DNA of 64,000 bases from Solimonas fluminis (GCF_002930645.1 NZ_PSNW01000003.1:124001-188000); one strand, 5' to 3'; shown: positions 4,161 through 27,647, numbered from the stretch's first letter. The notes: a model not told the origin generated them from the sequence alone. Numbers and translations are program-made.

Positions 4161-5168
4161 ATGCGCCTACCCCTCGCACTGGCCCCGTTGCTGCTGCTGT
4201 GCACCGCCGCCGCCTCGGCCGACTACGGCAGCCACCCCAAGGCCGCGACGCTGCTGGAACGGCTGCGCCAGGAGCATGGCTTCAGCGCCGCGGAGCTGGA
4301 TTCGGTCCGTGCCGCGCTGAGCGAGGCGCAGCGCCTGCCGCAGCTGGTGGAGATGGAGCAGAAGGCACCCGAGCGCACCGAGACCTGGACGCGCTATTCC
4401 AGCCGCATCGACCAGAGCCGCATCGACGGCGGCGTCGCGGTGCTGCGCGACCAGCAGCCCTTCCTGGACCGGGCGGAAGAAGAGTTCGGCGTGCCGCCGG
4501 CCGTGATCGCCGCGATCCTGGGCATCGAGACCCGCTACGGCCGCATCACCGGCAACATCCGCGTGCTGGACGCCCTGGCCACGCAGGGCTTCGAGCACCC
4601 GACGCGCTCGGCCTTCTTCGCCAGCGAGCTGGAGCACTTCTTCGTGTTCTGCCGCGACTTCCGCCGGGACCCGGCCGCCATCAAGGGCTCCTATGCCGGC
4701 GCCATGGGCGCGGCGCAGTTCATGCCCAGCAACTACCGCCGCCTGAGCCTGGACTACGATGGCGAGAACGGGCGGGACCTGTGGACCCTGCCGGATGCGG
4801 TCGGCTCCATCGGCCACTACTTCATGCGCTACCGGCCGTCGCAGGCCTGGCGCCGCGGCGAGCCGCTGATCATCCCGGCGCGCCTGCTGGCGCCGCTGCC
4901 GGCGGGCACCGAGGTCAACGGCAAGGCCACGGCCTACAACGCCGGCGCCCTGCTGCGCGCCGGCTGGCTCGCCGCCGACGTCGACCTGCCGCCGGACACG
5001 CCGGTCGGCATCATCCAGCTGCCGCTGGATGACGGCAGCCAGGAATACTGGCTGGCGCTGCACAATTTCTACACCGTGATGACCTACAACCCGCGTACCT
5101 TCTACGCCATGGCCGTGGCGCAGCTGGCCCAGCGCATCCAGCAGCGGCTGGCGGCGGAGGCCCGGTGA
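4161..5168 (+). CDS. mltB: Lytic murein transglycosylase B
   Basis: MltB cleaves the MurNAc-GlcNAc bond of peptidoglycan to give 1,6-anhydro ends. The 335-residue protein starts with a Sec-type signal peptide (residues 1-20, ending AASA) without a lipobox Cys at the usual place, so it may be soluble periplasmic rather than a lipoprotein. The catalytic Glu123 lies in GIETRYGRITGN, and AMGAAQFMPSNYR is the family's substrate-binding stretch. The ATG is preceded by AAGGA at 4151. It follows rodA by 8 bp and overlaps rlpA, so it is cotranscribed with the elongation genes. Confidence 0.94.
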   Translation: MRLPLALAPLLLLCTAAASADYGSHPKAATLLERLRQEHGFSAAELDSVRAALSEAQRLPQLVEMEQKAPERTETWTRYSSRIDQSRIDGGVAVLRDQQPFLDRAEEEFGVPPAVIAAILGIETRYGRITGNIRVLDALATQGFEHPTRSAFFASELEHFFVFCRDFRRDPAAIKGSYAGAMGAAQFMPSNYRRLSLDYDGENGRDLWTLPDAVGSIGHYFMRYRPSQAWRRGEPLIIPARLLAPLPAGTEVNGKATAYNAGALLRAGWLAADVDLPPDTPVGIIQLPLDDGSQEYWLALHNFYTVMTYNPRTFYAMAVAQLAQRIQQRLAAEAR

Positions 5169-6336: not shown

Positions 6337-7470
6337 ATGAAACGCCTGCTCGCCCTGCCCCTGCTGTCCCTGTCCCTGTCCCTGCATGCCGCCATTCCCG
6401 CGGCGCCGACCCTGGAAGCCTCGAGCTATGCCCTGCTCGACTACGACAGCGGCGAGCTGCTGGCCGCCAGCAACCCGGACCAGCGCGTGGGCCCGGCCAG
6501 CATCACCAAGGTGATGACCGCCTATGTCGTGCTCGAGGAGATCCGCCAGGGCCGCATGAAGCTGGAGGACACCGCCTTTGTCAGCGAGAAGGCCTGGCGC
6601 CAGGGCATCGACTCCTCCGAGTCGCGCATGTTCGTGCAGGTCGGCACGCGCGTGCCACTGGAAGCGCTGCTGCACGGCGTCATCACGCAGTCCGGCAACG
6701 ACGCCAGCGTGGTGCTGGCGGAGCACGTCGCCGGCAGCGAGGAGGCCTTCGCCGAGCTGATGAACCAGCAGGCCGCCAGGATCGGCATGAAGAACACCCA
6801 CTTCGCCAATGCCCCCGGCATGCCGGACCCGCAGCACTACAGCACCGCGCGCGACCTGACCCTGCTCGGCCGGGCGCTGATCCAGAGCTTCCCGGAGCAG
6901 TACAAGTGGTTCGCGCTGCCGGACTACACCTACAACGGCATCACCCAGCCCAACCGCAACCTGCTTCTGAAGAAGGACCCGAGCGTCGATGGCATCAAGA
7001 CCGGCCACACCTCGGAAGCCGGCTACTGCCTGCTGGCCTCGGCACAGCGCGACGGCCGCCGCCTGATCTCCGCGGTGATGGGCACCAAGAGCTGGGCCTA
7101 CCGCGAGCAGGCCAGCCTGGAGCTGCTGAACTGGGGCTTCCGCTTCTTCGAGAGCGCCCAGTTGCTCGGCCCCACCAAGCCCGCGGGCACGGTCAAGGTC
7201 TGGAAGGGCGCCGCCGGCGAAGTGCAGGTGGGCACGCTCAAGCCGGTCGCCATCACCCTGCCCCGCGGCGAAGCCGCTCGCGTGCAGGCCAGCTGGCAGC
7301 AGGAAGGCGAGGCCATCGCGCCGTTCGCCGCCGGCCAGAAGCTGGGCACGCTGACGCTGACGCTGGACGGCAAGCTGCTGCGCACCGAACCGCTGGTGGC
7401 GCTGCAGGACGTGGGCAAGGGCGGCTTCTGGCGCCGCCTGATCGACACGATCCGTCTCTGGTTCGCTTGA
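6337..7470 (+). CDS. dacC: D-alanyl-D-alanine carboxypeptidase (PBP5/6 type)
   Basis: This enzyme trims the terminal D-Ala from peptidoglycan pentapeptides. The 377-residue protein has a signal peptide (1-18), the active-site motifs SITK (Ser55, Lys58), SGN (119-121) and KTG (221-223), the PBP5-type C-terminal beta domain, and a final amphipathic segment (GFWRRLIDTIRLWFA) for membrane attachment. I chose the ATG at 6337 because it starts the signal peptide; a TTG at 6316 is in frame but adds a charged leader. dacA and dacC cannot be separated from sequence alone. Confidence 0.93.
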   Translation: MKRLLALPLLSLSLSLHAAIPAAPTLEASSYALLDYDSGELLAASNPDQRVGPASITKVMTAYVVLEEIRQGRMKLEDTAFVSEKAWRQGIDSSESRMFVQVGTRVPLEALLHGVITQSGNDASVVLAEHVAGSEEAFAELMNQQAARIGMKNTHFANAPGMPDPQHYSTARDLTLLGRALIQSFPEQYKWFALPDYTYNGITQPNRNLLLKKDPSVDGIKTGHTSEAGYCLLASAQRDGRRLISAVMGTKSWAYREQASLELLNWGFRFFESAQLLGPTKPAGTVKVWKGAAGEVQVGTLKPVAITLPRGEAARVQASWQQEGEAIAPFAAGQKLGTLTLTLDGKLLRTEPLVALQDVGKGGFWRRLIDTIRLWFA

Positions 7471-12280: not shown

Positions 12281-13294
12281 TCACCCAGCCAGGTTGCGTT
12301 GGCGGCGGCTCTCGCGGTACTGCACCGGGGTGATGCCGGACCAGCGCTTGAAGGCGCGGTAGAAGGTGCTGGGCTCGGAGAAGCCGGTCAGGTAGACGAT
12401 GTTCTCGATCGGCTCGTCGGTGGAGCGCAGCAGCTTGCGCGCCAGCGCGTAGCGGAAGTCGGCCAGCACTTGGCTGAAGCTGGTGCCGGCGCGGGACAGC
12501 TCGAAGCGCAGGCGCCGCGTCGGCACCCCGAGTTCCCGCGCCACGTCCTCCAGGTCGCACTTGTCCAGCTCCAGGCGCTGCGAGAACACCTTGCGGATGC
12601 CCTCGATCAGGTCCTGGCGCTTGAGATTGGACAGGCGCTTCTCCGCCAGCTCCTCGTGCAGCTTGAGCAGGTCCGGGTCCCAGCGCGGCGAGCGGTAGGC
12701 CAGCAGCTTGGGGTCGAACCAGATCTCGCTTTCGGGGGCGTCGAACTCCACCGGGCAGCCGAAGACCTTCTCGTACTCGGCCGGGTCGATGCGGCGGTCG
12801 AAGCGCAGGCGCACCTTCAGGGGTGCGAAATTGCGCTCCGTCACCGACCGGGCGAAGGCGATCAGCTCGTAGAGCACGCAGATCTCGGTATGGCGCAGCT
12901 GCGGTGCGTCCAGGGCGCCACCCTGCACCACCAGCCGCGAGCCCCGCTCGTCCTGGATGATGCGCACGTTCATGGCGTCGCTGAGCAGGCGCATGTACTT
13001 GAGGGAGCGGCCTACGCCCTCGCCCAGGGTCTGGCTGCTGAAGATCAGGTATTCCAGCACCTCGCCATGGAACACCGGCAGGTGCGGGCAGAGGTGCAGG
13101 CCCACTTCCTGGTCGCCGCTGACCTGCTCCACCACCTGCCAGAACAGGGTCTGCAGGGCGTGCTCGGTCCGGATTTCGCGCAGGGGCAGCTTCTCGGCGT
13201 GGTAGCCCAGCTGGCGGTAGATCGCGTCCACGTCCAGACCGGCCTTGACCATCCCGGCATGGATGATCTGGAGCAGTTGCCCCGAATCCTTCAT
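12281..13294 (-). CDS. AraC-family transcriptional regulator (arabinose-binding-like N-domain)
   Basis: The 337-residue regulator has an N-terminal effector domain of the type found in OruR/ArgR-like AraC proteins (about residues 15-200) and a C-terminal double helix-turn-helix (about 235-330; DVARELGVPTRRLRFELSRAG and NIVYLTGFSEPSTFYRAFKRW). The ATG is preceded by GGAGAG. It stands alone, convergent with mlaA and with no divergent partner. It is clearly more distant from the two AraC proteins at 20.9 and 26.6 kb than those are from each other. Its targets are unknown. Confidence 0.88.
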   Translation of the reverse strand: MKDSGQLLQIIHAGMVKAGLDVDAIYRQLGYHAEKLPLREIRTEHALQTLFWQVVEQVSGDQEVGLHLCPHLPVFHGEVLEYLIFSSQTLGEGVGRSLKYMRLLSDAMNVRIIQDERGSRLVVQGGALDAPQLRHTEICVLYELIAFARSVTERNFAPLKVRLRFDRRIDPAEYEKVFGCPVEFDAPESEIWFDPKLLAYRSPRWDPDLLKLHEELAEKRLSNLKRQDLIEGIRKVFSQRLELDKCDLEDVARELGVPTRRLRFELSRAGTSFSQVLADFRYALARKLLRSTDEPIENIVYLTGFSEPSTFYRAFKRWSGITPVQYRESRRQRNLAG

Positions 13295-13651: not shown

Positions 13652-13915
13652 TCAGACCCGGGCGAGATAGAACTCCACCGCCCGGCGGCGGTTGCCGACG
13701 CCGAACTTGGAGTAGATGTTGCGCAGGTGGTGCTTGACCGTGTTGATCGACACCTTCAGGGAGTCCGCGATCTCCTTGTCCATCATCTTGCGAGAGAGGC
13801 AGTCCAGCACCTCGCGCTCGCGCGGCGTCAGCGGCTCGGTCACCGGCATCGCCAGGCTGCCCATGCGGCCCGTGTCACCGCGCGGGTTCCAGGAGGAAAG
13901 ATTCGTATCCATCAT
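13652..13915 (-). CDS. HTH-only LuxR/GerE-type regulator (87 aa)
   Basis: The 87-residue protein is little more than a GerE-type DNA-binding domain: PLTPREREVLDCLSRKMMDKEIADSL and VSINTVKHHLRNIYSKFGVGNRRRAV are the typical helix-turn-helix segments. There is no receiver or autoinducer domain, only about 28 residues before the HTH. Its ATG overlaps the stop of the PaaG-like gene (TGATG), so translation is probably coupled and the protein is made whenever the catabolic unit is expressed. It may be an autoregulator of that unit; its sites are unknown. Confidence 0.85.
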   Translation of the reverse strand: MMDTNLSSWNPRGDTGRMGSLAMPVTEPLTPREREVLDCLSRKMMDKEIADSLKVSINTVKHHLRNIYSKFGVGNRRRAVEFYLARV

Positions 13916-14715
13916 CAACGCCCCTTGAAGTTCGGCTTGCGCTTCTGCACGAAGGCCATCGCCCCTTCCATGAAATCCTGGGATTGGCCGCAGTCGCGCT
14001 GCAGGTCGCTCTCCAGGTCCAGCTGCTTGTCCAGCTCGTTGGCCGCGGCGGCGTGGATCGCGCGCTTGATGCGCTCGATGGCCACGGCCGGGCCTTCCGC
14101 CAGGCGCTTCGCCATCGCCAGCACCGTCGGCATCAGTTGCTCGTCGTCCACTACGCTCCAGATCAGGCCCCACTCCTTCGCCTGCTCGGCCGACAGCTTC
14201 TCGCCCATCAGGGCCAGGCCCATGGCGCGCTGCGGACCGATGGCTCGCGGCAGGATCCAGGTGCCGCCGGCATCGGGAATCAGGCCGACGTTGACGAAGG
14301 CCTGCAGGAAGGATGCGGAGCGCGCCGCCACGGTCAGGTCGGCCATCAGCGCCAGGTTGGCGCCGGCCCCGGCGGCGATGCCGTTGACCGCCGAGATGAT
14401 CGGCTTGGGCAGCTCACGCATCTTCAGGATCAGCGGGTTGTAGTAACGGTCCAGCACGAAGCCGAGATCCAGCCGGCCCTGCAGGTCCAGCGGCGGCTTG
14501 TCGCTGGTGGCCGCCAGGTCCGCGCCGGTGGAGAAGCCGCGGCCCTCGCCGGTCAGCACGATGGCACGCACCGCGGCATCGGCCGCGGCGGCGTCGAAGG
14601 CCTGGCCCAGCTCCTCCATCAGTTCCAGCGTCATGGCATTGAGCGCCTTGGGCCGGTTGAAGCTGATGACGGCGATGCCCTGCTCGATGCGGTACAGGAG
14701 GTTCTTGAAGTCCAT
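13915..14715 (-). CDS. PaaG-like enoyl-CoA hydratase/isomerase
   Basis: This 266-residue crotonase-fold protein carries the PaaG-type pattern NGIAAGAGANLALMADL and GLIPDAGGTWILPR, followed by LSAEQAKEWGLIWSVVDD. In this family the first catalytic Glu of hydratases is missing and an Asp (GLIPD) is kept, which suits isomerisation (in PaaG, 1,2-epoxyphenylacetyl-CoA to oxepin-CoA, or delta3/delta2-enoyl isomerisation). No paaABCDE genes are nearby, so an acyl-chain or alicyclic substrate is as likely. It lies 16 bp behind the aldehyde dehydrogenase and overlaps the LuxR gene. Confidence 0.85.
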   Translation of the reverse strand: MDFKNLLYRIEQGIAVISFNRPKALNAMTLELMEELGQAFDAAAADAAVRAIVLTGEGRGFSTGADLAATSDKPPLDLQGRLDLGFVLDRYYNPLILKMRELPKPIISAVNGIAAGAGANLALMADLTVAARSASFLQAFVNVGLIPDAGGTWILPRAIGPQRAMGLALMGEKLSAEQAKEWGLIWSVVDDEQLMPTVLAMAKRLAEGPAVAIERIKRAIHAAAANELDKQLDLESDLQRDCGQSQDFMEGAMAFVQKRKPNFKGR

Positions 14716-14731: not shown

Positions 14732-16210
14732 TCAGAGGTTTTCGCGGCGCGGCCGGTTGTGCAGCATGAAGCCCAGCACCCAGGCGGCCAGCGCGCCGAA
14801 GGGCGGGCGCAGGAACACGCTGGCCTTGGTCAGCCGGCTCATGAACAGCACCGGCTTGAGATGCGAGAAGCGGTCGAAACCGGCTTGGCCGTGATAGGCA
14901 CCGATGCCGCTGGCGCCGACACCGCCGAAGGGCAGGTTGTGCTGGATGGCGTGGTAGCCGCAGCCGTTGATGCTGACGCCGCCGGAGATGGTGCGCTTGA
15001 GCACGCGCTCCACTTCGGCGCCGCGGTTGCTGAAGAAGTACAGCGCCAGCGGACGCTCGCCGGCGTTGACGTGCGCCAGCGCCGCATCCAGCGTCTTGTA
15101 GCCCAGCACCGGCAGCACCGGCCCGAAGATTTCCTCGCGGCACAGCGTGGTGTCGGCGGGACAGTCGGACACCAGCGTCGGCGGGAACACGCGGTTGTCG
15201 GGGCCGAAGCTCTCGTCGGCGGGGTTGAAGGTTTCCACCTTCGCCCCCCTGCCCCGCGCTTCCTCGACCCAGTTCGACAGGCGCGTCCAGTCGCTGCGGA
15301 TCAGCACGCGGCCATAGTCGGGGTTGTCCACCAGCTTCGGGTAGAACGCCTTGATCGCGTTGCGCGCGTGCTCCAGGAATTCCGGCACCGAAGCCTCCGG
15401 CACCAGGGCGTAGTCGCCGGTGACGCAGGTCTGACCGGCATTGAGGAACTTGGTCTGGACGATGGTTTCGGCTGCCGTCTTCAGGTCGTAACCCTCGCCG
15501 ACGATGGCCGGGCACTTGCCGCCCAGTTCCAGCGTCACCGGCACCAGGTTCTCGGCGGCGTCGCGCATGATCAGCTTGCCGACGCGCGTGGAGCCGGTGA
15601 AGACCAGGTGATCGAAAGGCAGCTTGGAGAACTGCTTGGCCACGCTGCTGTCGCCGGCGACCACGGCCACCTGCTCCTCCGGATACAGGCCCGAGACGAT
15701 CTGCCGCATCAGCTCGGTGCTGCGCGGCGTCAGGCTGGAGGGCTTCATCATCACGTGGTTGCCGGCCGCGATGGCGCCCACCACCGGCGACAGAGTCGTC
15801 ATCACCGGGTAGTTGTAGGCGCCGATCACGCCGATCACGCCCAGCGGCTGCGGGATCAGGCAGGCACGGCTCGGGAGGAATTGCCAGTTGGCGGAAACGC
15901 GGCGCGTGCGCATCCACGACTTGAGCTTCGCCTGGGCGTAGCGCAGGTCGTCGATCACCACGAACAGCTCCAGCAGCGACTCCTGGCGCGCACGGCCGCC
16001 GAAGTCGGCGGCCATGGCGTCGGCCAGGGCCAGGCGCTGGTCCATCAGCGCCTGCTCCAGCTTGCGCAGCATCTCGCGGCGCTCGGCCAGCGAGGAGGGT
16101 TCGCCCCTGGCGTTGAATGCCGCCCTCTGCCGGTCGAGCAGCACCGGCAGAGGGTTGTCGCCGGCCGGCGCAGCGGCCAGCTTCGTCACGGTATCAAGGA
16201 CGGCGGACAT
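14732..16210 (-). CDS. Aldehyde dehydrogenase (coniferyl-aldehyde-dehydrogenase type)
   Basis: This NAD(P)-dependent aldehyde dehydrogenase has 492 residues. It belongs to the short class-3-like/CalB branch: PLGVIGVIGAYNYPVMTTL, the nucleotide-contact FTGSTRVGK, general base in VTLELGGKCP and nucleophile Cys in NAGQTCVTGDYAL. The C-terminal hydrophobic stretch (LAAWVLGFMLHNRP) resembles the tail of membrane-associated fatty aldehyde dehydrogenases. In this gene set a fatty or alicyclic aldehyde is a reasonable substrate, but that is inference. Confidence 0.88.
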   Translation of the reverse strand: MSAVLDTVTKLAAAPAGDNPLPVLLDRQRAAFNARGEPSSLAERREMLRKLEQALMDQRLALADAMAADFGGRARQESLLELFVVIDDLRYAQAKLKSWMRTRRVSANWQFLPSRACLIPQPLGVIGVIGAYNYPVMTTLSPVVGAIAAGNHVMMKPSSLTPRSTELMRQIVSGLYPEEQVAVVAGDSSVAKQFSKLPFDHLVFTGSTRVGKLIMRDAAENLVPVTLELGGKCPAIVGEGYDLKTAAETIVQTKFLNAGQTCVTGDYALVPEASVPEFLEHARNAIKAFYPKLVDNPDYGRVLIRSDWTRLSNWVEEARGRGAKVETFNPADESFGPDNRVFPPTLVSDCPADTTLCREEIFGPVLPVLGYKTLDAALAHVNAGERPLALYFFSNRGAEVERVLKRTISGGVSINGCGYHAIQHNLPFGGVGASGIGAYHGQAGFDRFSHLKPVLFMSRLTKASVFLRPPFGALAAWVLGFMLHNRPRRENL

Positions 16211-16240: not shown

Positions 16241-18400
16241 TCAGCCCGCCTTCTTGTAGAACAGCTCGCCGGAGGCGCCGCGCGCCTTCAGCCACTCCGA
16301 GGGCTCGAAGCGCGGCCCCCAGGCGGCGGCCAGGCGCGCGCACTCGTCGGCGAAGGCCTTGGGGCCCTGCGTGTCGATGTAGGACAGCGTGCCGCCGGTC
16401 CAGGCCGGGTAGCCGATGCCGAGGATCGAGCCGATGTCGGCGTCGATCGGCGAGGCGATCACGCCCTCCTCGAAGCAGCGCGCCGTCTCCAGCGCCATGA
16501 TGGTCAGGAAGCGCGACTTCACCTCCGCCAGCGTCGGCTGCTCGGCCTTCACCGGGAAGACATCCTTCAGGCCCTTCCACAGCTTCTTGCCGCCGCCCTC
16601 CGGGTAGTCGTAGAAGCCGGCGCCGAAGCGGCGGCCCGGGCGCTTGAGTTCGTCCACCATCCTGTCGACGACCGGACGACCGAGCTTGCCGCGGTACTTC
16701 TCCGGCAGGTTGTCGGCTTCCTGCTGCTTGTAGATGCTCTGCTGCAGGAACATGGTCACTTCGTCGGACACGGCCAGCGGGCCCACCGGGAAGCCGGCGA
16801 GCTTGGCGCCGTTCTCGATCAGCGTCGGCTCGATGCCGTCGAGCAGCATCTTCTGGCCTTCCGAACAGAAAGTGCCGAACACGCGGCTGGTGTAGAAGCC
16901 CGGGAAGTCGCGCACCACGATCGGGGTCTTCTTGATCTGCGCGACGTAGTCCAGGGCCTTGGCCAGGGTCTCGTCGGAGGTCTGCTCGCCGAGGATGATC
17001 TCGACCAGCGGCATCTTCTCGACCGGCGAGAAGAAATGGATGCCGATGAACTGCTTCGGGCGCCTGGAGGCCTTGGCCAGGCCGGTGATCGGCAGCGTGG
17101 AGGTGTTGGAGCCGAAGGTCGCCGTCTCGGGGATCACGGCCTCGGTCCTGGCCGTGACGTCGGCCTTGATCTCGCGCTTCTCGAACACGGCCTCGACGAT
17201 CAGGTCGCAGCCTTCCAGGTCGGCGTAGTCGGCCGTGGCCTTGATGCGGCCGAGGATGGCGTCGATCTTGTCCTGCGTGGTCTTGCCCTTGGCCAGGTCC
17301 TTGGCCTGCATCGCGGCGATGCCGGCCTTGCCCTTCTCGGCCTGCTCCAGGGTGGAGTCGAGCAGCACGACCTGGATGCCGGCCTTGGCGCTGACATGCG
17401 CGACGCCGGCGCCCATCATGCCGGCGCCGAGCACGCCCAGCTTCTGCACCTTGGACTTGGCCACGCCCTTGGGGCGGCCGGCCAGCTTGTCGGCGGCGCC
17501 CTTGTTGATGAACATCGTGCGGATCAGGTTGCGCGCCACGGCGCCCGACAGCAGCTTGCCGAAGTACTTGCTCTCGATGCGCAGGCCCGTGTCCATCGGC
17601 ACCTGGGTGCCTTCGAAGACGCAGGACAGGATGGCGTTGGGGGCCGGATAGTTGCCGTTGGTGTTGGCCGAGGTCAGCGCATTGCCGGCGACGAAGGTCT
17701 GGCTGGCATGTGCGGCCATAGGGCCGGCGCCGCCGGGCACGCGGAAGTTCTTCTTGTCCCAGGGCTGTTCGGCGCTGGGCGTGGCCAGCAGCCACTCGGT
17801 GGCCTTGGCCACCAGCTGGTCGGCCGGGGCCAGGGCGTGGACGATGCCGAGCTTGAGCGCCTCGGCCGGCTTCACCTGCTTGCCCTGCAGCAGCAGCGGC
17901 AGCGAGTTGGGGATGCCGATCAGGCGCGGCAGGCGCTGGGTGCCGCCGGCGCCCGGCAGCAGGCCGACATTGACCTCGGGCAGGCCGACGACGGCCTTGG
18001 GATCATCGCTCAGCGCGCGGAAATGGCAGGCCAGGCAGAGCTCCAGGCCGCCGCCCAGGGCCAGGCCGTTGATCGCGGCGGCGAAGGGCTTGCCGCTGGT
18101 CTCGATGCGGCGGAACAGGGCGGAGAGCTCGAACGAGGCCTTGGAGCCCTCGACGGCGTCGATGCCCTTGTCGAAGGCCGTGACCAGGTCCTTCAGGTCG
18201 GCGCCGGCGACGAAGGCGCCCGGCTTGCCGGAGGTGATGATGGCGCCCTTGATGGCGGCGTCGGCGGCGATGCGCTCGACGGCCTGCGTCAGCTCGGCGG
18301 TCAGCTCCGGCGTGATGACGTTCATCGGCCGCTCGGGCACGTCGATGGTGAGGATGGCGAAGCCGTTGCGGTCGAGGTCGAATTTCAGTGCGGTAGTCAT
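16241..18400 (-). CDS. FadB/FadJ-like bifunctional enoyl-CoA hydratase/3-hydroxyacyl-CoA dehydrogenase
   Basis: This is the multifunctional beta-oxidation enzyme of 719 residues. The N-terminal crotonase domain (about 1-190) keeps both catalytic Glu residues ([11 protein letters not shown] and [18 protein letters not shown]). The NAD-binding 3-hydroxyacyl-CoA dehydrogenase domain begins at [16 protein letters not shown] (near residue 320), with the catalytic His in [16 protein letters not shown], and is followed by the C-terminal HCDH domains. It is preceded by a thiolase gene in the same direction, so the pair forms a hydratase-dehydrogenase-thiolase set. Confidence 0.94.
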
Positions 18401-18532: not shown

Positions 18533-19741
<1,209 letters not shown>

Positions 19742-19852: not shown

Positions 19853-20620
19853 TTAGCGCGGCGCCATGCGGATGGCGCCGTCCAGGCGGATGCATTCGCC
19901 GTTGAGCATCGGGTTCTCGACGATCTGCACGGCGAGCTGGGCGAACTCGGACGGACGGCCGAGGCGCGGCGGGAAGGGCACCGACTTGTTCAGCGAGTCC
20001 AGTGCCTCCGGCGACAGGCCGGCGAGGATCGGCGTCTCGAAGATGCCGGGGGCGATGGTCATCACGCGGATGCCGATGCGCGCGAACTCGCGCGCCAGCG
20101 GCAGCGTCATGCCGACCACGCCGGCCTTGGACGCCGAGTAGGCCGGCTGGCCGATCTGGCCGTCGAAGGCCGCGACCGAGGCGGTGTTGATGATCACGCC
20201 GCGCTCGCCGCCCTCGTTGGGCGCTTGCAGGCTCATCGCATGCGCCGCCAGGCGGATCACGTTGAAGCTGCCGACGAGGTTGACGCTGATGATGCGGTTG
20301 AAGCGCTCCAGCGCCAGCGGGCCTTCCTTGCCCAGCGCCTTCTCGGCGGCGCCGATGCCGGCGCAGTTCACCGCGCCGTGCAGGCCGCCCAGTTCGGCCA
20401 GCGCCAGCGTCACGGCCTGCTGCACGTCGGCTTCGCTGGCCACGTCCACGCGCGCATGGCGCGCGGCGGGGCCCAGCTCCCGCGCCAGTTCCTGGCCGAG
20501 CTTGTCGTTGAGGTCGGCGATCACCACCTTGCCGCCGCGGGCGACCAGTGCGCGCGCCGTGGCGGCACCCAGGCCCGAGGCACCGCCGGTGATCAGGAAG
20601 ACGCGGTTTTCGATATGCAT
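19853..20620 (-). CDS. SDR-family 3-hydroxyacyl-CoA dehydrogenase (HSD10-like)
   Basis: This 255-residue short-chain dehydrogenase has the cofactor motif TGGASGLG (11-18), NNAG-equivalent NCAG, and the catalytic triad Ser148, Tyr161 and Lys165 (YSASK). Sequence features such as [27 protein letters not shown] and [12 protein letters not shown] are typical of the type II 3-hydroxyacyl-CoA dehydrogenase/HSD17B10 group. I chose the ATG at 20620 because GGGGAG lies 7 bp upstream. It is the promoter-proximal gene of the minus-strand unit that continues with the thiolase and FadB-like genes. Confidence 0.92.
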
Positions 20621-20635
20621 CTGGAACTCCCCAGT

Positions 20636-20666
20636 AAAAAAACGCCGGCGCCTGTTGCGGCGCCGG
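20636..20666 (-). terminator. Intrinsic terminator in the leader of the SDR gene
   Basis: On the minus strand an 8-bp perfect GC stem (CCGGCGCC/GGCGCCGG, loop GCAACA) is followed by CG and seven U residues, only 15 bases before the SDR start codon and in the same direction. There is no room for a promoter between the U-run and the ribosome binding site, so transcripts of this unit must read through it. It may be an attenuator or a relic terminator. Confidence 0.7.
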
Positions 20667-20726
20667 GCTCTGTTTTCATGGCTGGGAATGCTGCCGCCCG
20701 TCACCACCCGCGGGGAATGAGTCCAG

Positions 20727-20754
20727 GGGACAAACAGTTAATGATTTCGGCCAG
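20727..20754 (+). promoter_or_regulatory. Operator-like site A (two GG[AC]CA half-sites, 21 bp apart)
   Basis: Half-sites GGACA at 20728 and GGCCA at 20749 enclose TTAATGATT. The site lies about 107 bp upstream of the SDR start. It shares the 21-bp phasing and central A/T core with sites B, C and D, which suggests binding by the neighbouring AraC paralogues. Confidence 0.6.
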
Positions 20755-20820
20755 ATGATCGTCCTTCCGTGGCATCGCGGCAGACTTGCTCCGAGGGGGA
20801 AACCCGAAAAATGACGTTTT

Positions 20821-20849
20821 CGGCCAACTCACTGATAATTGCGGCCAAC
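20821..20849 (+). promoter_or_regulatory. Operator-like site B upstream of AraC gene
   Basis: An exact direct repeat CGGCCAAC (20821-20828 and 20842-20849) with 21-bp phasing encloses CTGATAATTG. It ends 29 bp before the ATG of the AraC gene at 20879, the position expected for autoregulation. It is the most regular of the four sites. Confidence 0.65.
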
Positions 20850-20878
20850 CACCTCCCGCCGCCGTCGGAGTCCGATCC

Positions 20879-21922
20879 ATGCCCGTCGCCGAAGTACGCC
20901 GCCCGGTCATCAGCGCACAGTTGCTCACGCGGCTCGGGGCCGAGCGTGGCCTGCCGGTGGAAGCCTGCCTGCGCAATACCGGGATCGACGCCGCCGACCT
21001 GTCCAACCCCGCCACCGAGATCAGCGCCGCGCAGGAACTGCAGCTGATCCGCAACCTGCTCTCCGGGCTCGGCCCCGCAGCGAGCCAGGGCCTGGGCCTG
21101 GACGCCGGCCTGCGCTATCACCTCTCGGCCTACGGCATCTGGGGCTTCGCGCTGATCAGCAGCCCCAACTTCCGCAGCGCGGCGGAGATCGCGGTGCGTT
21201 ACCTGGATCTTTCCTATGCCTTTGCGCGCTACCGCCTGGAGAACGTCGGCAAGGACCTGCTGATCGTGCTCGATGACAGCGAGGTGCCCGAAGACCTGCG
21301 CCAGTTCCTGGTGGAGCGCGACTTCGCCGCCTGGGCCAACGCGGCCTGGGAGATGCGCCCCGGCGGCTTCCCCGGGCGCAGTGCGCAATTCCGCTTTCCG
21401 CGCCCCGACTACGCCTGGCGCTTCGACAAGCTCTGCGGCGTGCGCCCCAGCTTCGAGGCACCGCTCAACGCCATCCTGATCGCCGCCAAGGACCTGGACG
21501 CCCCGCTGCCGCAGGCCAACCCGATGATGGCGCGCATGTGCGAGGAGCAGTGCCGCCAGCTGCTGGCCAAGCGCAGCGTGCGCTCCGGCCTGGCGGGCCA
21601 GATCCGCGACCGCCTGCTGCGCAATCCCGGCGAGATGCCCTCGCTGGAAACCGTGGCGGAGGAGCTGCACATGGCCTCGCGCAGCCTGCGCCGCCGGCTC
21701 GACGAGGAGGGCACCACCTTCCGCGCGCTGGTGGACGAGGTGCGCCAGACGCTCGCGGAGGAGTTGCTGCTGTCCGCCCACATGAAGCTGGCCGAGATCG
21801 CCAGCCGCCTCGGCTACACCGAGCCTGCCGCCTTCATCAGCGCCTTCAAGCGCTGGAAGGGCATGTCGCCCACCGCCTACCGCAAGCTCAAGCGACCGGG
21901 GGCGGGCGACGCCGACGCATGA
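20879..21922 (+). CDS. AraC-family regulator, paralogue 1
   Basis: The 347-residue protein has an N-terminal ligand-sensing domain (about 10-210; GIWGFALISSPNFRSAAEIA) and a C-terminal AraC double HTH (about 240-340; EELHMASRSLRRRLDEEG, EIASRLGYTEPAAFISAFKRWKGMSP). It is strongly similar along its whole length to the product at 26613-27647 and is transcribed divergently from the SDR/thiolase/FadB unit. The ATG at 20879 follows GGAG; an upstream in-frame start at 20786 would place site B inside the gene. I expect it to control the fatty-acid-type genes nearby. Confidence 0.9.
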   Translation: MPVAEVRRPVISAQLLTRLGAERGLPVEACLRNTGIDAADLSNPATEISAAQELQLIRNLLSGLGPAASQGLGLDAGLRYHLSAYGIWGFALISSPNFRSAAEIAVRYLDLSYAFARYRLENVGKDLLIVLDDSEVPEDLRQFLVERDFAAWANAAWEMRPGGFPGRSAQFRFPRPDYAWRFDKLCGVRPSFEAPLNAILIAAKDLDAPLPQANPMMARMCEEQCRQLLAKRSVRSGLAGQIRDRLLRNPGEMPSLETVAEELHMASRSLRRRLDEEGTTFRALVDEVRQTLAEELLLSAHMKLAEIASRLGYTEPAAFISAFKRWKGMSPTAYRKLKRPGAGDADA

Positions 21923-21982
21923 TGCGGGAGCCAGCTTGCCGGCGACTTCCAGATCGAGCTCGCCGGCGAGCTGGCTCCTGCA
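21923..21982. repeat. REP-like inverted repeat (GGGAGCCAGCTTGCCGGCGA type)
   Basis: Arms at 21923-21945 and 21960-21982 are inverted copies of TGCGGGAGCCAGCTTGCCGG with a central AGATCGAGCT-like loop. It lies between convergent genes (AraC and SDR) and has the same GGGAGC head as the repeats at 19780 and 40064 but a different core. Confidence 0.75.
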
Positions 21983-21991
21983 GACACGAGC

Positions 21992-22774
21992 CTAGATACC
22001 CCACTTCTCGATCAGCCCCACCATCTCGCGGCGCAGCCAGAACGGCTGGTACTTCATGCCCTGCACCGCGAGCCGGTTCATCAGGCCGTTGATGTGCAGC
22101 GCCCTGCCGGTCATGCAGGCTTCGTAGGACTCGCGCGCCACCTGCTCCGGCGTCAGGTTGGGCACCAGCGGCAGGGTCATGGGCTTGCGGCCCTCCTGCG
22201 CGATCATCGCCGTCTCCGTGAAGCCGGGGCAGACCGCCGTCACCGTGACGCCGCGCTCGCGCAGCTCCAGGTTCAGCGCCTCGCTCCAGGACAGCAGGTA
22301 GGCCTTGCTCGCGGCGTAGCTGGCCAGCGAGGGTACCGGGTTGAAGGCCGAGGTGGAGGCGATGTTGAGGATACGCCCCGCCCCGCGTGCCAGCATCGGC
22401 TGCAGGAACAGGTGCGCCAGCGCCGTGGGCGCGGCGATGTTCACCTGCAGCAGGTTGAGGTGTCTTTCCAGCGCGATGCCGTCGAACTCGCCCTCCCACA
22501 GCACGCCGGCGTTGTTGACCAGGATGTCCACCTCGAGATTGCGCCGCTGGCAGGCCTCGAACAGCTCCTGCGGCGCCTGCGGCCGCGACAGGTCGGCGGC
22601 GATCCATTCGCTGGCGGTGCCGTGGCGGCGGCGCAGATCGGCCGCGATCTCCTTCAGCCGGTCCGCCGATCGCGCCACCAGCAGCAGCGGATGGCCGCGC
22701 GATGCGAATTCGCCGGCCAGCGCCAGGCCGATGCCGGCCGAAGCCCCGGTGACCAGCACCGTTTCCCGGCTCAT
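21992..22774 (-). CDS. Short-chain dehydrogenase/reductase coupled to WS/DGAT
   Basis: This 260-residue SDR of the DltE/YqjQ type has TGASAGIG (9-16), LVNNAG and the catalytic YAASK. Its ATG overlaps the stop of the acyltransferase gene (ATGA), so the two are coupled. In this context an acyl-CoA/fatty aldehyde reductase or 3-oxoacyl reductase role feeding wax ester synthesis is plausible. The C-terminal part (RALHINGLMNRLAVQGMKY) is common in SDRs found beside WS/DGAT genes. The substrate cannot be read from sequence. Confidence 0.85.
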   Translation of the reverse strand: MSRETVLVTGASAGIGLALAGEFASRGHPLLLVARSADRLKEIAADLRRRHGTASEWIAADLSRPQAPQELFEACQRRNLEVDILVNNAGVLWEGEFDGIALERHLNLLQVNIAAPTALAHLFLQPMLARGAGRILNIASTSAFNPVPSLASYAASKAYLLSWSEALNLELRERGVTVTAVCPGFTETAMIAQEGRKPMTLPLVPNLTPEQVARESYEACMTGRALHINGLMNRLAVQGMKYQPFWLRREMVGLIEKWGI

Positions 22775-24162
22775 GCCGCCTTCTCCACGGCGATGCCCAG
22801 CACGCGCTCCAGTTCTTCCAGCGCCTCGCCGGTATAGACCGCGATCTTCTGCATGCTGGGCAGGCTGTCGCGACAGCCGGTGAAGCCCAGGCAGAAACTG
22901 CCGGCATAGCTGACCACCGAGATGTTCAGGGCCTGGCCGTTGAACAGCAGAGAGATCGGGTAGATCTGCTCCAGCCTCGCGCCATTGAGATACAGCGTCT
23001 CCGAGGGGCCCGGCACGTTGGAGATGATCAGGTTGTACATCGGCCGCGTGTAGCCGCCCAGGCCCAGGCTCACCTGCAGCATCTGCGGCGTCATCAGCAT
23101 CATGGTGTAGTGGTTGATGGCCGCCTTGGGCAACTGCTGCAGCGGCTGCTTGGCCGCCTGTGCCGAGGCATGGCAGGCCTTGAGCCGCTCCAGCGGATCG
23201 GCGATCTCGGTGTGCAGTTGCGCCATGATGAAGCTGATGGCATTTCCGACGCTCTGGTCTCCGGCCGGCCGCACCGACACCGGCATGCCGGCCGTGAGCG
23301 AGGCCTCCGGCAACTGTCCCAGCTCGCCCAGGTAGCGCCGCAGCGCGCCCGAGCACAGCGCCATGAACACGTCGTTGAGCGTGACCCCGGCGATGCGCGC
23401 CACCCGCTTGATGCGGTCCAGTTCGTAGTGCTGCGTGGCGAAGCGGCGCTTGCCCAGGATGCGTCCGTTGAACGGCGTCATCGGCGCCGCGAAGGGCCGC
23501 GCCGTTTCGTCCTCATGCTCCTGCGCCGGGCCGGATACCAGCGTCTTCACCGCCGGCACCAGGGCCTGCACCTGCTCACGCAGGACCTGCCTGAGCGGCA
23601 TCGGCCTCGGGCGGGCCCGGCGCTCGCCGCCTTCGGCGCGCCGTCCCTCCCAGGGCGGCGCCAGGTTGCGGGCCTCGGGGTCGGTGGACATGCTGCCCTG
23701 GATCATGCGTGCGCCGCCCACGCCGTCGATCTGCGAATGGTGCAGCTTGGTGTAGAGCGCGAAGCGGCGGTTCTCCAGGCCCTCGATCAGGTGCACCTCC
23801 CAGAGCGGGCGGCGGCGATCCAGCGGGTAGGAATGCAGGCGCGAGATCAGCGTGCCCAGCTCGCGCTCGCCGCCCGGCTGCGGCAGCGCCGAATGGCGGA
23901 AGTGATAGTCCAGGTCGATCCGGTCCGGCGACAACTCCTCCCAGGCCGGCAGCAGCTTGCGCAGGGCACCGCGCTGCAGCCGGTAATTGAAGGGCGGCGC
24001 GAAGATGCGCGTGGCGCGGAAGCGCGCCGCCATCTGCAGCAGGTAGTCCGAGGGCGCGTCCGGCGGCAGCGAGAAGATCGCCAGGCAGCCGATGTGCGTC
24101 GGCATCTCGCGCTGCTCCATGAACAACCAGGCGGCGTCGTTGGGCTTGATCAGGATGGACAT
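22771..24162 (-). CDS. Wax ester synthase/diacylglycerol acyltransferase (WS/DGAT)
   Basis: The enzyme esterifies acyl-CoA with fatty alcohols or diacylglycerol to make storage wax esters or triacylglycerol. The 463-residue protein carries the catalytic HHxxxDG motif (HHSQIDG, His141-Gly147), the family PLWEVHLIEGL just before it, and the C-terminal NLIISNVPGP motif. The length is typical (450-480). Site D lies about 80 bp upstream of its start. It heads a two-gene unit with the SDR. Confidence 0.94.
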   Translation of the reverse strand: MSILIKPNDAAWLFMEQREMPTHIGCLAIFSLPPDAPSDYLLQMAARFRATRIFAPPFNYRLQRGALRKLLPAWEELSPDRIDLDYHFRHSALPQPGGERELGTLISRLHSYPLDRRRPLWEVHLIEGLENRRFALYTKLHHSQIDGVGGARMIQGSMSTDPEARNLAPPWEGRRAEGGERRARPRPMPLRQVLREQVQALVPAVKTLVSGPAQEHEDETARPFAAPMTPFNGRILGKRRFATQHYELDRIKRVARIAGVTLNDVFMALCSGALRRYLGELGQLPEASLTAGMPVSVRPAGDQSVGNAISFIMAQLHTEIADPLERLKACHASAQAAKQPLQQLPKAAINHYTMMLMTPQMLQVSLGLGGYTRPMYNLIISNVPGPSETLYLNGARLEQIYPISLLFNGQALNISVVSYAGSFCLGFTGCRDSLPSMQKIAVYTGEALEELERVLGIAVEKAA

Positions 24163-24242
24163 GCGGTGTCTCCCGGCACGGCAGCGTCGCGATTCGACGG
24201 CGGCATGGTGCCGGTGAGCGGCGGCTCATCCAATGCGAGGGC

Positions 24243-24270
24243 GGGACAGGCCGTTGATAGAATCGGACAG
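24243..24270 (+). promoter_or_regulatory. Operator-like site D upstream of WS/DGAT
   Basis: Half-sites GGACAGG at 24244 and GGACAG at 24265 are a direct repeat with 21-bp phasing around GTTGATAGAAT. The orientation is the same as in sites A, B and C. It lies about 80 bp upstream of the acyltransferase start, and no regulator gene is adjacent, so one of the AraC paralogues would act in trans. Confidence 0.55.
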
Positions 24271-24360
24271 GCGGGGACCTGTTCCAAGCAGTTCATACCA
24301 TCGGCAGGGACGCTTAGGGCGCGCGAATCGGCCAGATATTGAGCGGCGTGGTTCCCGCCG

Positions 24361-24390
24361 TTCACCCTTCGACAGGCTCAGGGCGAACGG
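24361..24390. repeat. CCTTCGACAGGCTCAGGG-type dispersed repeat
   Basis: TTCACCCTTCGACAGGCTCA (24361-24380) followed by GGGCGAACGG is a palindromic element recurring in this window at 37531, 39981, 60123, 60176 and 63926. Confidence 0.75.
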
Positions 24391-24641
24391 TGGGTTTAAT
24401 CGCTTTACGATTCACAGAAACCCTCTCCTCGGCAACTGCTCCTGCGTTGCCCTACCTCGGGCATCCATGCCCTCGCCTGCCCGTCTCCCGCTTGCGGGAG
24501 AGGGGTTCTGCTTTTCTCCCAACCAGCAGAGATCAACGAAGGAATTTCGGAATCACTCTTCCGAGGTCTTCATGAGCGACTGCGAATGCTTTGGATGTAC
24601 GGGCCAGCGGGGCCGTCCGCGCCCAGGGTGTGTTTCTCTTG

Positions 24642-24672
24642 GTTACTTTCTTTTCACAAGAAAGAAAGTAAC
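24642..24672. repeat. GTTACTTTC-type dispersed hairpin
   Basis: A perfect 12-bp inverted repeat GTTACTTTCTTT/AAAGAAAGTAAC encloses TCACAAG and is followed by CTCGCCCTTGGGCGA, a second small palindrome. It resembles a dispersed element seen in several gammaproteobacterial genomes. No coding role. Confidence 0.65.
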
Positions 24673-24767
24673 TCGCCCTTGGGCGAAACCAACCCTTAGA
24701 GATCCACTGTGCCTGACCGGCGTCGTCGCCGGCACCTCCGTCGTGGCTTCCAGCCGAAAGTCCGCAG

Positions 24768-24812
24768 CCCCTCACCCTAGCCCTCTCCCCCCAAGCGGGG
24801 AGAGGGAGAGAA
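24768..24812. repeat. CCCTCTCCC/GGGAGAGGG-type dispersed repeat
   Basis: CCCTCACCCTAGCCCTCTCC (24770-24789) leads into a hairpin CTCTCCCC/GGGGAGAG at 24783-24804. The same arrangement (CCCTCACCCCTGCCCCTCTC) recurs at 57031 inside flgJ. Confidence 0.7.
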
Positions 24813-24856
24813 GAGGCAACGCCATCAATGAGAATGGCGAAAACAAAGGGCAGGAA

Positions 24857-26473
24857 TTAAGACCGCAGGATCATCTCCGCCGCCTTCTCCGCGATCATCG
24901 TCGTCGGCGCATTGGTGTTGGCGCCGATCAGCGTCGGCATGATGGAGGCATCCACCACGCGCAGGCCCTGCACGCCGCGCACGCGCAGCTGCGGGTCCAC
25001 CACCGCCATCTCGTCCACGCCCATCTTGCAGGTGCCCACCGGGTGATAGGTGGTCTCCGCGGCTTTGCGCACCCAGGCCGCGATGTCGGCGTCGGACTGC
25101 ACCGCCGGGCCGGGGCTCAGTTCCTCGCCGCGGTGCGGGTCCAGCGCGCGCTGCTTGAGCACCTCGCGCGTCAGCTTCACGCCCGCCACCAGCTTGTCCA
25201 CGTCGCGCGGCTCGGCCAGGTAGTTCGGGTCGATGCGCGGCGGCGCCAGCGGATCGGCGCTGTGCAGGCCGACGCGGCCGCGTGACAGCGGACGCAGGTC
25301 GTAGAGATAGGCGATGTAGCCGTAGCGCAGGAACATCGGTACCAAATTGAAACCGTGCGTCACGTTGGGAAACGGGCCGAAGTGCCACTGCAGGTCCGGA
25401 ATCGGCTCGGCCGGCGAGGACTTCAGGAAGCCGCCGGCCTCCGGGCCGTTGCTGGTCAGCATGCCGCGCTTGCCGAACAGGTACTGGAACAGGGCGACGA
25501 TCGACTTCAGCAGCGAGGTCGGGTGGTAAGAGATGCCGGCACGGCTCTTCGCCTGGGTCTCCACGATCACTTCCAGGTGATCCTGCAGGTTCTCGCCCAC
25601 GCCGGGTAGGTCCTGCTGCACGGCGATGCCGTGCTTCTGCAGCTCCGCCTTCGGGCCGATGCCGGAGAGCATCAGCAGCTGTGGCGACTGGAAGGCGCCG
25701 GCGGAGAGGATCACCTCGCGCTGCGCGCGCAACTCCTCGTCGCGGCCGCCGCGGCGCAGCTTCACGCCGATGGCGCGGCCGTTCTCGATCAGCACCCGGG
25801 TGGCCTGCGCGCCGGTGAGGATGTGCAGGTTGCGGCGCGCACGCACCTCCGGCGTCAGGTAGGCGCGCGCGTTGCTGCAACGCTGGCCGCCCTTCTGGAA
25901 CACCTTGAACTGGCCGGCACCGGCCTGCGCGGCGCCGTTGAAGTCCTCGTTATGGACATGCCCGGCCTGCACGGCAGCCTCGACCATCGCCGAGCTGACC
26001 GGGTTGGTATAGCGCCGCGCCGTGACGTTCAGCGGACCGCCCTGGCCGTGGAAGGGACGATCGCGCTCGGCCAGCGGCGCCTCGTAGTTCTCGGACTTGC
26101 GGAAATAGGGCAGCACCTCGTCATAGGACCAGCCGCTGCAGCCCAGCTCGGACCAATGGTCGTAGTCCCAGCGGTGGCCGCGGGTACAGACCGTGGCATT
26201 GATGCTGCTGCAGCCGCCCAGCACCTTGCCGCGCGGCTGGTAGGTGCGGCGCCCGCCGAGCTGCGGCTGCGGCTCGCTCCAGAACCGCCAGTTGGCAAAC
26301 CAGCCGCGCACCAGCGGCACCACGCCCAGCGGCATGTGGATCAGCGGATTGCGGTCGTCCGGGCCGGCCTCCAGCAGGCAGACCTGGTAGCGCCCGTCGG
26401 CACTCAGGCGGTTGGCCAGCACACAGCCGGCGGAACCGCCGCCGACGACGATGTAGTCGAAACTCTGGGGCAC
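24857..26473 (-). CDS. GMC-family FAD alcohol dehydrogenase (choline dehydrogenase-like)
   Basis: This 538-residue flavoprotein has the FAD motif GGGSAG (13-18), the GMC signatures GKVLGGCSSIN and GAFQSPQLLMLSGIGP, and the catalytic His in YHPVGTCKMG with a C-terminal Asn in GANTNAPTTM. The family oxidises primary alcohols including long-chain and terpenoid alcohols. I chose GTG at 26473 because GAGGAG lies 8 bp upstream and the FAD motif follows at once; longer in-frame starts lack this. It is divergent from AraC paralogue 2, with site C between them. Confidence 0.9.
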   Translation of the reverse strand: MPQSFDYIVVGGGSAGCVLANRLSADGRYQVCLLEAGPDDRNPLIHMPLGVVPLVRGWFANWRFWSEPQPQLGGRRTYQPRGKVLGGCSSINATVCTRGHRWDYDHWSELGCSGWSYDEVLPYFRKSENYEAPLAERDRPFHGQGGPLNVTARRYTNPVSSAMVEAAVQAGHVHNEDFNGAAQAGAGQFKVFQKGGQRCSNARAYLTPEVRARRNLHILTGAQATRVLIENGRAIGVKLRRGGRDEELRAQREVILSAGAFQSPQLLMLSGIGPKAELQKHGIAVQQDLPGVGENLQDHLEVIVETQAKSRAGISYHPTSLLKSIVALFQYLFGKRGMLTSNGPEAGGFLKSSPAEPIPDLQWHFGPFPNVTHGFNLVPMFLRYGYIAYLYDLRPLSRGRVGLHSADPLAPPRIDPNYLAEPRDVDKLVAGVKLTREVLKQRALDPHRGEELSPGPAVQSDADIAAWVRKAAETTYHPVGTCKMGVDEMAVVDPQLRVRGVQGLRVVDASIMPTLIGANTNAPTTMIAEKAAEMILRS

Positions 26474-26564
26474 GCGAAACACTCCTCGATGCACGGTCTT
26501 GCAGCCGCGTTGGGGCAATCCATCCATCATGAGGGACCGTTGACAGCCTTGTAGATGACGCCAA

Positions 26565-26592
26565 GGGACAAGGTATTGATAATTGTGGCCAG
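26565..26592 (+). promoter_or_regulatory. Operator-like site C between GMC and AraC genes
   Basis: Half-sites GGACA at 26566 and GGCCA at 26587 have 21-bp phasing around ATTGATAATTG. Over 32 bases it matches site A at 23 positions. It lies about 92 bp from the GMC start and 21 bp before the AraC ATG, so it could serve both divergent genes. Confidence 0.65.
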
Positions 26593-26612: not shown

Positions 26613-27647
26613 ATGGTCCCCGAGGACGCAACGCGCAGCGCGATCAGTGCCAACCTGCTGACCCAGCTCGCGGTCTCGCGCGGGATGGAGGCGGCCGAGT
26701 GCCTGCAGGGCACGGGTATCGACCCGGACACGCTGGCCGACCCGCAGAGCGAGATCACCGCGGGCCAGGAGCTGCGCCTGGTGCGCAACATCGTGCGCCG
26801 GCTGCGCCACCTGCCGGACCTGGGACTGGATGCCGGGCTGCGCTATCACCTGGCGGTGTACGGCATCTGGGGCTTCGCCCTGGTCAGCAGCCCCAACTTC
26901 CGCAGCGCGGCGGACATCGCCACCCGTTACCTCGATCTGTCCTATGCCTTCGTGCGCTTCCGCATGGAGCCGCGCGGGCGCGACATCGCCGTGCTGCTGG
27001 ACGACAGCGGCATCCCCGAGGACCTGCGCCAGTTCCTGCTGGACCGCGACTTCGCCGCGCTGACCAATGCCGTGCGCGAGATCCGCCCGGGCGGCATTCC
27101 GCCCACGCGCGTGCTGCTGCGCGGGCCGCGCCCGGCGCATGCCGCGCGCTACGCCGAACTCTGTGGGCTGGAGCCGCAGTTCGATGCCGCCGAGAACTCG
27201 GTGCTGTATTCGGCCGCCGTGCTGGACGCGCCCCTGCCGCAGGGCGACAGCCAGCTCGCGCGGCTCTGCCTGGACCAGTGCCGGCAACTGCTGGCGCAGC
27301 GCCAGTCGCGCGCCGGCATCGCCGGCAAGGTGCGCGACCTGCTGCTGCGCGCGCCGGGAGAGATGCCCGACATCCAGCGCATCGCCGACAGCCTGCACCT
27401 GTCACCGCGCAGCATGCGCCGCCGCCTGGAAGAGGAAGGCACCTCGTTCCGCGCCCTGCTCGACGAGGTGCGCCAGACCCTGGCGGAGGAAATGCTGAGC
27501 ACCGGCCGCATCAAGCTCAGCGAGATCGCGCTGCGCCTGGGCTACTCCGAGCCGGCCAGCTTCATCCACGCCTTCAAGCGCTGGAAAGGCATGTCGCCCT
27601 CCGCCTTCCGCGAACAGCAGACCGGCGAGACCTCCTCCGATCAGTAA
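26613..27647 (+). CDS. AraC-family regulator, paralogue 2
   Basis: The 344-residue protein has the same two-domain layout as the AraC protein at 20879: sensing domain (GIWGFALVSSPNFRSAADIA) and double HTH (DSLHLSPRSMRRRLEEEG, EIALRLGYSEPASFIHAFKRWKGMSP). The similarity in the HTH suggests overlapping DNA targets. I chose ATG at 26613 over GTG at 26583, which would put the gene start inside site C. The 3' end overlaps the convergent crotonase gene by 7 bp. Confidence 0.9.
   Translation: MVPEDATRSAISANLLTQLAVSRGMEAAECLQGTGIDPDTLADPQSEITAGQELRLVRNIVRRLRHLPDLGLDAGLRYHLAVYGIWGFALVSSPNFRSAADIATRYLDLSYAFVRFRMEPRGRDIAVLLDDSGIPEDLRQFLLDRDFAALTNAVREIRPGGIPPTRVLLRGPRPAHAARYAELCGLEPQFDAAENSVLYSAAVLDAPLPQGDSQLARLCLDQCRQLLAQRQSRAGIAGKVRDLLLRAPGEMPDIQRIADSLHLSPRSMRRRLEEEGTSFRALLDEVRQTLAEEMLSTGRIKLSEIALRLGYSEPASFIHAFKRWKGMSPSAFREQQTGETSSDQ

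Follow-up and report, generated by a model that had tools for sequence, protein, structure and literature searches.

A predicted 37-bp tandem operator of AraC-family regulators beside lipid genes of Solimonas fluminis

The 64,000-nucleotide stretch of the Solimonas fluminis genome analysed here (GCF_002930645.1, NZ_PSNW01000003.1:124001-188000; the window) contains four sites, A to D, that on sequence evidence are real, conserved operator-type elements of the AraC family and not chance matches. We consider it highly probable that they are, taken jointly, the operators of two adjacent AraC proteins with a PF12625-type ligand domain and of a third paralogue encoded elsewhere in the genome, and that they would combine class II activation of metabolic genes with autoregulation of araC. 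A first-pass annotation had described two GG(A/C)CA half-sites 21 bp apart at each site (A 20728/20749, B 20822/20843, C 26566/26587, D 24244/24265), all pointing the same way. The half-sites are present at these positions with this spacing, and all four sites are on the plus strand. In their full length the elements are:

20717..20753, plus strand: operator A, 37 bp, ATGAG-N6-GGACA-N5-TTAAT-N6-GGCCA, predicted to serve the leftward unit from a short-chain dehydrogenase (SDR) through thiolase, FadB and aldehyde dehydrogenase to enoyl-CoA hydratase
20811..20847, plus strand: operator B, 37 bp, ATGAC-N6-GGCCA-N5-CTGAT-N6-GGCCA, holding the predicted araC1 promoter
26555..26591, plus strand: operator C, 37 bp, ATGAC-N6-GGACA-N5-TTGAT-N6-GGCCA, between the GMC oxidoreductase gene and araC2
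24233..24269, plus strand: operator D, 37 bp, ATGCG-N6-GGACA-N5-TTGAT-N6-GGACA, upstream of the wax ester synthase/diacylglycerol acyltransferase (WS/DGAT) gene

The architecture of the operator was derived by aligning sites from Nevskiaceae, Pseudomonas, and Actinobacteria together with their flanks. The best-conserved columns are the GGMCA boxes (M being A or C), and an additional box, ATG(AC), is conserved at positions -11 to -7 from the left GGMCA, which gives a 37-bp operator of the form ATGAc-N6-GGMCA-N5-TTGAT-N6-GGMCA. Because ATG(AC) is placed relative to the left GGMCA as TTGAT is relative to the right one, the operator consists of two tandem half-sites of 16 bp, WTGAY-N6-GGMCA, with a period of 21 bp. 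The left and right halves agree at 9.1 of 16 positions at a shift of 21 bp compared to 2.7-4.9 at neighbouring shifts, and a near-perfect tandem, ATGATACTTTCGGACA-atgga-TTGATACTTTCGGACA, is found at locus L031. Two two-box direct repeats, with the boxes about 10 bp apart and a period of 21 bp, support the AraC/XylS-type geometry that had been suggested, and each AraC monomer would occupy one half-site, with one of its two helix-turn-helices (HTHs) in each box. The ATG box, absent from the first description, also explains why TGTCCC on the minus strand of A, C, and D had been seen to be followed by CAT at the same offset. This CAT is indeed there and is the reverse complement of the ATG at -11 to -9, which is found in B as well. 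A subgroup of the Pseudomonas sites has a half-site period of 20 bp, not 21 (L150, L156, L158, L159, L164, L166, L171, L172, L186).

The pair of half-sites alone, GGMCA-N16-GGMCA, is real at all four sites; without the core it is unspecific. It has 15 matches in the window (mean of dinucleotide shuffles 1.1) and 452 in the genome, against 101 for a reversed-pattern control; the bare pair is common in this genome of 68% GC, and it was discarded as a motif. The genome (4.67 Mb) was scanned by pattern and by model. With a TTGATAATT-like core included, the motif GGMCANNNNNYTRATRATTNNGGMCA has four exact matches in the genome, which are A, B, C, and a site upstream of a third araC gene, and one match with a single mismatch, which is located upstream of a tlpA-like gene. 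D has three mismatches, the level at which chance matches begin. A matrix free of Solimonas sites, for which the other genera of the family supplied all sites, places A to D at ranks 1-4 of about 128,000 window positions (scores 32.6, 28.5, 33.0, and 16.4, respectively; next best 3.4). If the matrix is restricted to Pseudomonas and Actinobacteria, B, A, and C take ranks 1-3 and D rank 5, and D is outranked by a match at 6494 inside the 6337-7470 reading frame. The E-values that our model R1 gives for the Solimonas sites are partly circular because these sites were included in it, which does not apply to the leave-out matrices. No coding sequence was called at A to D, although 86.5% of the window is coding. 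A and C are each conserved in three other Solimonas genomes, and four Solimonas genomes keep the A-B spacing of 94 bp (about nine helical turns). D is also present ahead of this WS/DGAT gene in two congeners, with GGACA and GGCCA interchangeable as half-sites.

Two genes in the window encode the AraC proteins to which these elements are tied:

20879..21922, plus strand: AraC paralogue 1 (AraC1), with Arabinose_bd PF12625 (E 7e-39) and HTH_18 PF12833 (E 6e-20)
26613..27647, plus strand: AraC paralogue 2 (AraC2), with PF12625 (E 7e-44) and PF12833 (E 8e-20)

In 58 genomes of the family the motif has about 50 matches compared to none for the reversed-pattern control, and most of them separate an araC homologue from a monooxygenase, GMC, or thiolase operon. 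Presence of the motif is associated with presence of a close AraC homologue (Fisher p = 3e-4), and five of the seven apparent exceptions have a variant site. Most close relatives of AraC1 and AraC2 in Nevskiaceae and Pseudomonas have the operator 10-100 bp upstream of their gene, and several Actinobacteria (Amycolatopsis, Nocardia, Saccharopolyspora, and others) have a weaker form, in which the left box is mostly GA instead of ATG. Among 80 close AraC homologues drawn from named genomes, whose upstream boxes were scored up to a maximum of 14 bases, 52 face a Baeyer-Villiger-type monooxygenase gene. All 14 box bases are present at 40 of these 52 loci and at least 13 at 47, compared to 2 and 41, respectively, of 4624 background windows from the same loci. 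The usual layout in Pseudomonas is an AraC gene divergent from monooxygenase, lipase, and SDR genes. Homologues with the site cluster on the tree, yet its distribution requires about 11 changes, and it is therefore not the mark of a single clade. A class-wide search of 369 genomes with the family motif gave matches outside the family near the control level, as the core differs in other clades (TTGTGA in Pseudomonas). A palindrome-like variant, GGCCAATTCGTTATTCGAATCGGCCA, was seen at a thiolase-facing AraC1-like gene of an uncultured member of the Salinisphaerales (L146, about 4873-4898).

The surroundings of the operators also contain putative promoters. On the side of the metabolic gene, a hexamer resembling a -10 box (xAxxxT) is present at a fixed offset, to within one base, in 25 of 26 family sites (19 share one offset and in six it is one base further) and at a fixed operator distance in all 33 Pseudomonas rows. 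A -35 element is not evident on this side, where the ATG-box end of the operator occupies its position, which fits a class II activator. In the other direction, the araC1 promoter is the sole sigma70-like promoter detected in 20500-21000.

20688..20693, minus strand: -10-like box CAGCAT of the putative SDR1 operon promoter, at the fixed distance from operator A
26526..26531, minus strand: -10-like box CATGAT of the putative GMC promoter, at the fixed distance from operator C
24205..24210, minus strand: -10-like box CACCAT of the putative WS/DGAT promoter, at the fixed distance from operator D
20811..20839, plus strand: putative araC1 promoter, ATGACG-17 bp-GATAAT, inside operator B
26555-26560 and 26578-26583, plus strand: putative araC2 promoter, ATGACG-17-GATAAT, inside operator C (coordinates read from the sequence)

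Because the -10-like box keeps a fixed distance to the operator, AraC probably activates the metabolic promoters from the -35 region, and because B and C contain an araC promoter, AraC probably controls its own gene through these two operators. From the sequences, their conservation, their geometry, and their genomic association we infer binding, activation, autorepression, and a ligand. The SDR-thiolase-FadB, GMC, and WS/DGAT units would be under class II activation by the liganded AraC dimer, with the ATG-box end of A, C, and D abutting the -35 region of the leftward promoter. A dimer bound to B or C would cover the araC promoter and thus shut or tune araC. A and B would be separate copies for the two tasks, with A driving the operon from SDR1 to the enoyl-CoA hydratase and B driving araC1, while C would perform both roles, for GMC and araC2. 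The SDR1 leader, from the operator-A promoter to the start codon, contains a strong intrinsic-terminator-like hairpin (20645-20666, minus strand; eight GC pairs followed by TTTTTTT, with the T-run reaching to about 20636); three congeners also have a hairpin in this position, and it is a possible attenuator.

The genes next to the operators, apart from the regulators, are as follows:

19853..20620, minus strand: SDR1, short-chain dehydrogenase, first gene of the operator-A operon
18533..19741, minus strand: acetyl-CoA C-acetyltransferase (thiolase), NF006090 above cut-off
16241..18400, minus strand: FadB-type enoyl-CoA hydratase/3-hydroxyacyl-CoA dehydrogenase
14732..16210, minus strand: aldehyde dehydrogenase
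13915..14715, minus strand: enoyl-CoA hydratase
22771..24162, minus strand: WS/DGAT, TIGR02946 above cut-off
21992..22774, minus strand: SDR2, short-chain dehydrogenase, downstream of WS/DGAT
24857..26473, minus strand: GMC oxidoreductase, choline dehydrogenase-like, alcohol oxidation

The first-pass annotation had united these genes in one lipid regulon under one signal. The elements are indeed tied to PF12625 AraC genes and to operons of lipid metabolism, alcohol oxidation, and beta-oxidation, but the proposed regulon was incomplete. The model search in the genus yields six clear sites in the S. fluminis genome, which are A to D and two at further loci, a monooxygenase-lipase-GMC operon opposite araC3 and a tlpA-DUF3570 module, where the operator is located in the promoter. 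Further model matches in this genome (e.g. C31:94787, E 0.04) cover the model only partially, look like coding matches, and were rejected. Site B is real but looks like a site for the self-control of araC1 and not like a site of a lipid operon. Judged by family membership, the genes would fit an oxidation of long aliphatic ketones, esters, and alcohols to acids that enter beta-oxidation, together with wax ester storage. A common signal is unproven, because the near-identical operators are shared by three paralogous AraC proteins, which may respond to different ligands. The third, AraC3, is 60% identical and its gene lies opposite a Baeyer-Villiger monooxygenase operon (L069).

Could each AraC control only its adjacent operon, with the operators being alike because the paralogues are young? 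Three such local circuits without a common regulon or signal are possible but rather unlikely. Most sites in the family are found beside their own araC gene, AraC1-3 share only 57-61% identity in the ligand-binding domains, and AraC1-type proteins keep their thiolase-FadB partner in another genus (L048/L077). However, neither D at the WS/DGAT gene nor the tlpA site has an araC gene of its own, so that at least one AraC likely acts in trans as part of a regulon, and the nearly identical recognition-helix segments of AraC1-3 lead us to expect cross-binding. We think it very improbable that a different transcription factor co-regulates these operons through the sites, as the sites without a neighbouring araC might suggest. 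The element tracks this group of AraC proteins in Nevskiaceae, Pseudomonas, and several Actinobacteria, and the tandem two-box plan is that of AraC/XylS dimers such as XylS (PMC5481539). Equally improbable is that the core is mainly an araC promoter (-35 ATGACG, -10 GATAAT) plus a divergent promoter, with GGMCA being incidental and not bound by AraC. The plus strand of the core does read as a promoter in B and C, and a -10-like box faces the opposite direction; however, the GGMCA boxes are the best-conserved columns, belong to no promoter element, and recur at 21 bp. In addition, orphan sites without araC retain TTGAT and GGMCA, and the Pseudomonas core TTGTGA is not a -10 and the box spacing is nevertheless retained. 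Chance or a codon-structure artefact, to which the 452 genome matches of the bare pair in a GC-rich genome might point, has a negligible probability in view of the leave-out matrices, the 58-genome control, the box scores of the 80 homologues, and the genome matches with the core included. It is refuted for A, B, and C, while the case for D is its conservation in two congeners.

Several observations weigh against the sites being AraC operators of this design. D is the weakest of the four, with an aberrant core (GATAGA) and a score far below those of A to C. The target-side -10 hexamers are weak (CANNAT), and the Pseudomonas rows are closely related and comprise 19 distinct 37-mers. The element is not present at the Aquabacterium relatives of these AraC proteins and at a tandem mycobacterial araC pair (L218/L219). 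Finally, the S. fluminis genome encodes three further paralogues of this broad clade, AraC5-7, that have no operator, and AraC4 has only half-sites with a different core; the operator thus does not follow the whole clade.

Some further features were noted around these genes. The fourth araC paralogue (L123, 5900-5925, minus strand) has GGACA half-sites 21 bp apart around the core GGACAGTCTATAGACCAAAACGGACA and is apparently located opposite a GMC gene. A more distant PF12625 AraC gene (12281-13294, minus strand) lies just downstream of the operator-A operon, and a free-standing LuxR-type HTH protein of 87 residues (GerE, PF00196; 13652-13915, minus strand) overlaps the end of the enoyl-CoA hydratase gene. 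The tlpA-DUF3570 module is preceded by genes for a protein with a linalool dehydratase/isomerase domain (PF18566) and a flavodoxin-like oxidoreductase (L070, 3565-8801); a similar tlpA-like module in another genome (G042, L075) also has a site.

An operator of this kind, the AraC/XylS two-box tandem, is already known, and the same element accompanies related regulators of Pseudomonas and some Actinobacteria, in which it is apparently unmapped. The prediction offers a testable operator at base resolution for AraC proteins of monooxygenase and lipid operons, and one such element could serve two divergent promoters. The predicted six-site regulon of Solimonas would join wax ester synthesis, alcohol oxidation, ketone and alkane oxidation, and beta-oxidation. 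The matrix could help to locate such regulons in further genomes, and sensors could be built with it.

In the literature searched we found no description of the 37-bp operator, and a search with the half-site sequence gave no relevant paper. The closest operator is that of XylS at Pm on the TOL plasmid of Pseudomonas putida, which consists of two 15-bp direct repeats, TGCA-N6-GGTA, adjoining RNA polymerase at the activated promoter (PMC5481539). Tandem two-box half-sites with N6 are common to both; the Solimonas repeats have 16 bp, a period of 21 bp, and a fixed -10-like box, and they differ in the sequences of their boxes, WTGAY and GGMCA. Unlike XylS, the Solimonas regulators have a PF12625 ligand domain, and their operator can contain the promoter of the regulator itself. 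The best structural match to the predicted AraC2 model is CdpR of Pseudomonas aeruginosa (PDB 5chh, E 5e-15), a self-repressor whose promoter region also serves a divergent gene that is activated, while its footprinted motif CTGCGCCTGGATGAT is unlike the Solimonas operator (PMC4847859). The model also matches the N-terminal domain of VirS (8rcw, TM 0.78 by target, 16% identity over the domain), the Mycobacterium tuberculosis AraC regulator opposite the Baeyer-Villiger monooxygenase operon mymA, for which the DNA is treated as the whole intergenic region (PMC13234193). VirS was matched at 8rcx as well (E 1.7e-12). The mycobacterial loci examined keep at best one half-site, such as TTGATATATTCGGACA at the araC-monooxygenase locus L268. 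In Acinetobacter venetianus RAG-1, the AraC/XylS-type protein APR1 activates the flavin monooxygenase gene almA with long-chain alkanes as ligand; apR1 is not adjacent to almA, and no operator motif is given (PMC11784139). In these papers the VirS-mymA and APR1-almA sites are treated only as whole promoter regions. The pairing of a PF12625 AraC with a divergent monooxygenase, as in these systems, is seen at the AraC3 locus, in most Pseudomonas, and in several actinobacterial relatives, whereas the AraC genes in the window face GMC and SDR-thiolase genes, and the targets there are GMC, SDR-thiolase-FadB, and WS/DGAT. It is a tentative idea, which we hold to be possible rather than likely, that the 37-bp tandem is the ancient operator of the whole VirS/APR1-like group, common to Proteobacteria and Actinobacteria, and that in Solimonas the regulator was duplicated with the operator unchanged, so that paralogues with different sensors would converge on one lipid gene set (an OR-gate regulon). 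APR1 binds both at its target and at the promoter of its own gene, which it represses in the absence of ligand (PMC11784139); this is the same combination of activation and self-repression as proposed here for the Solimonas AraC proteins.

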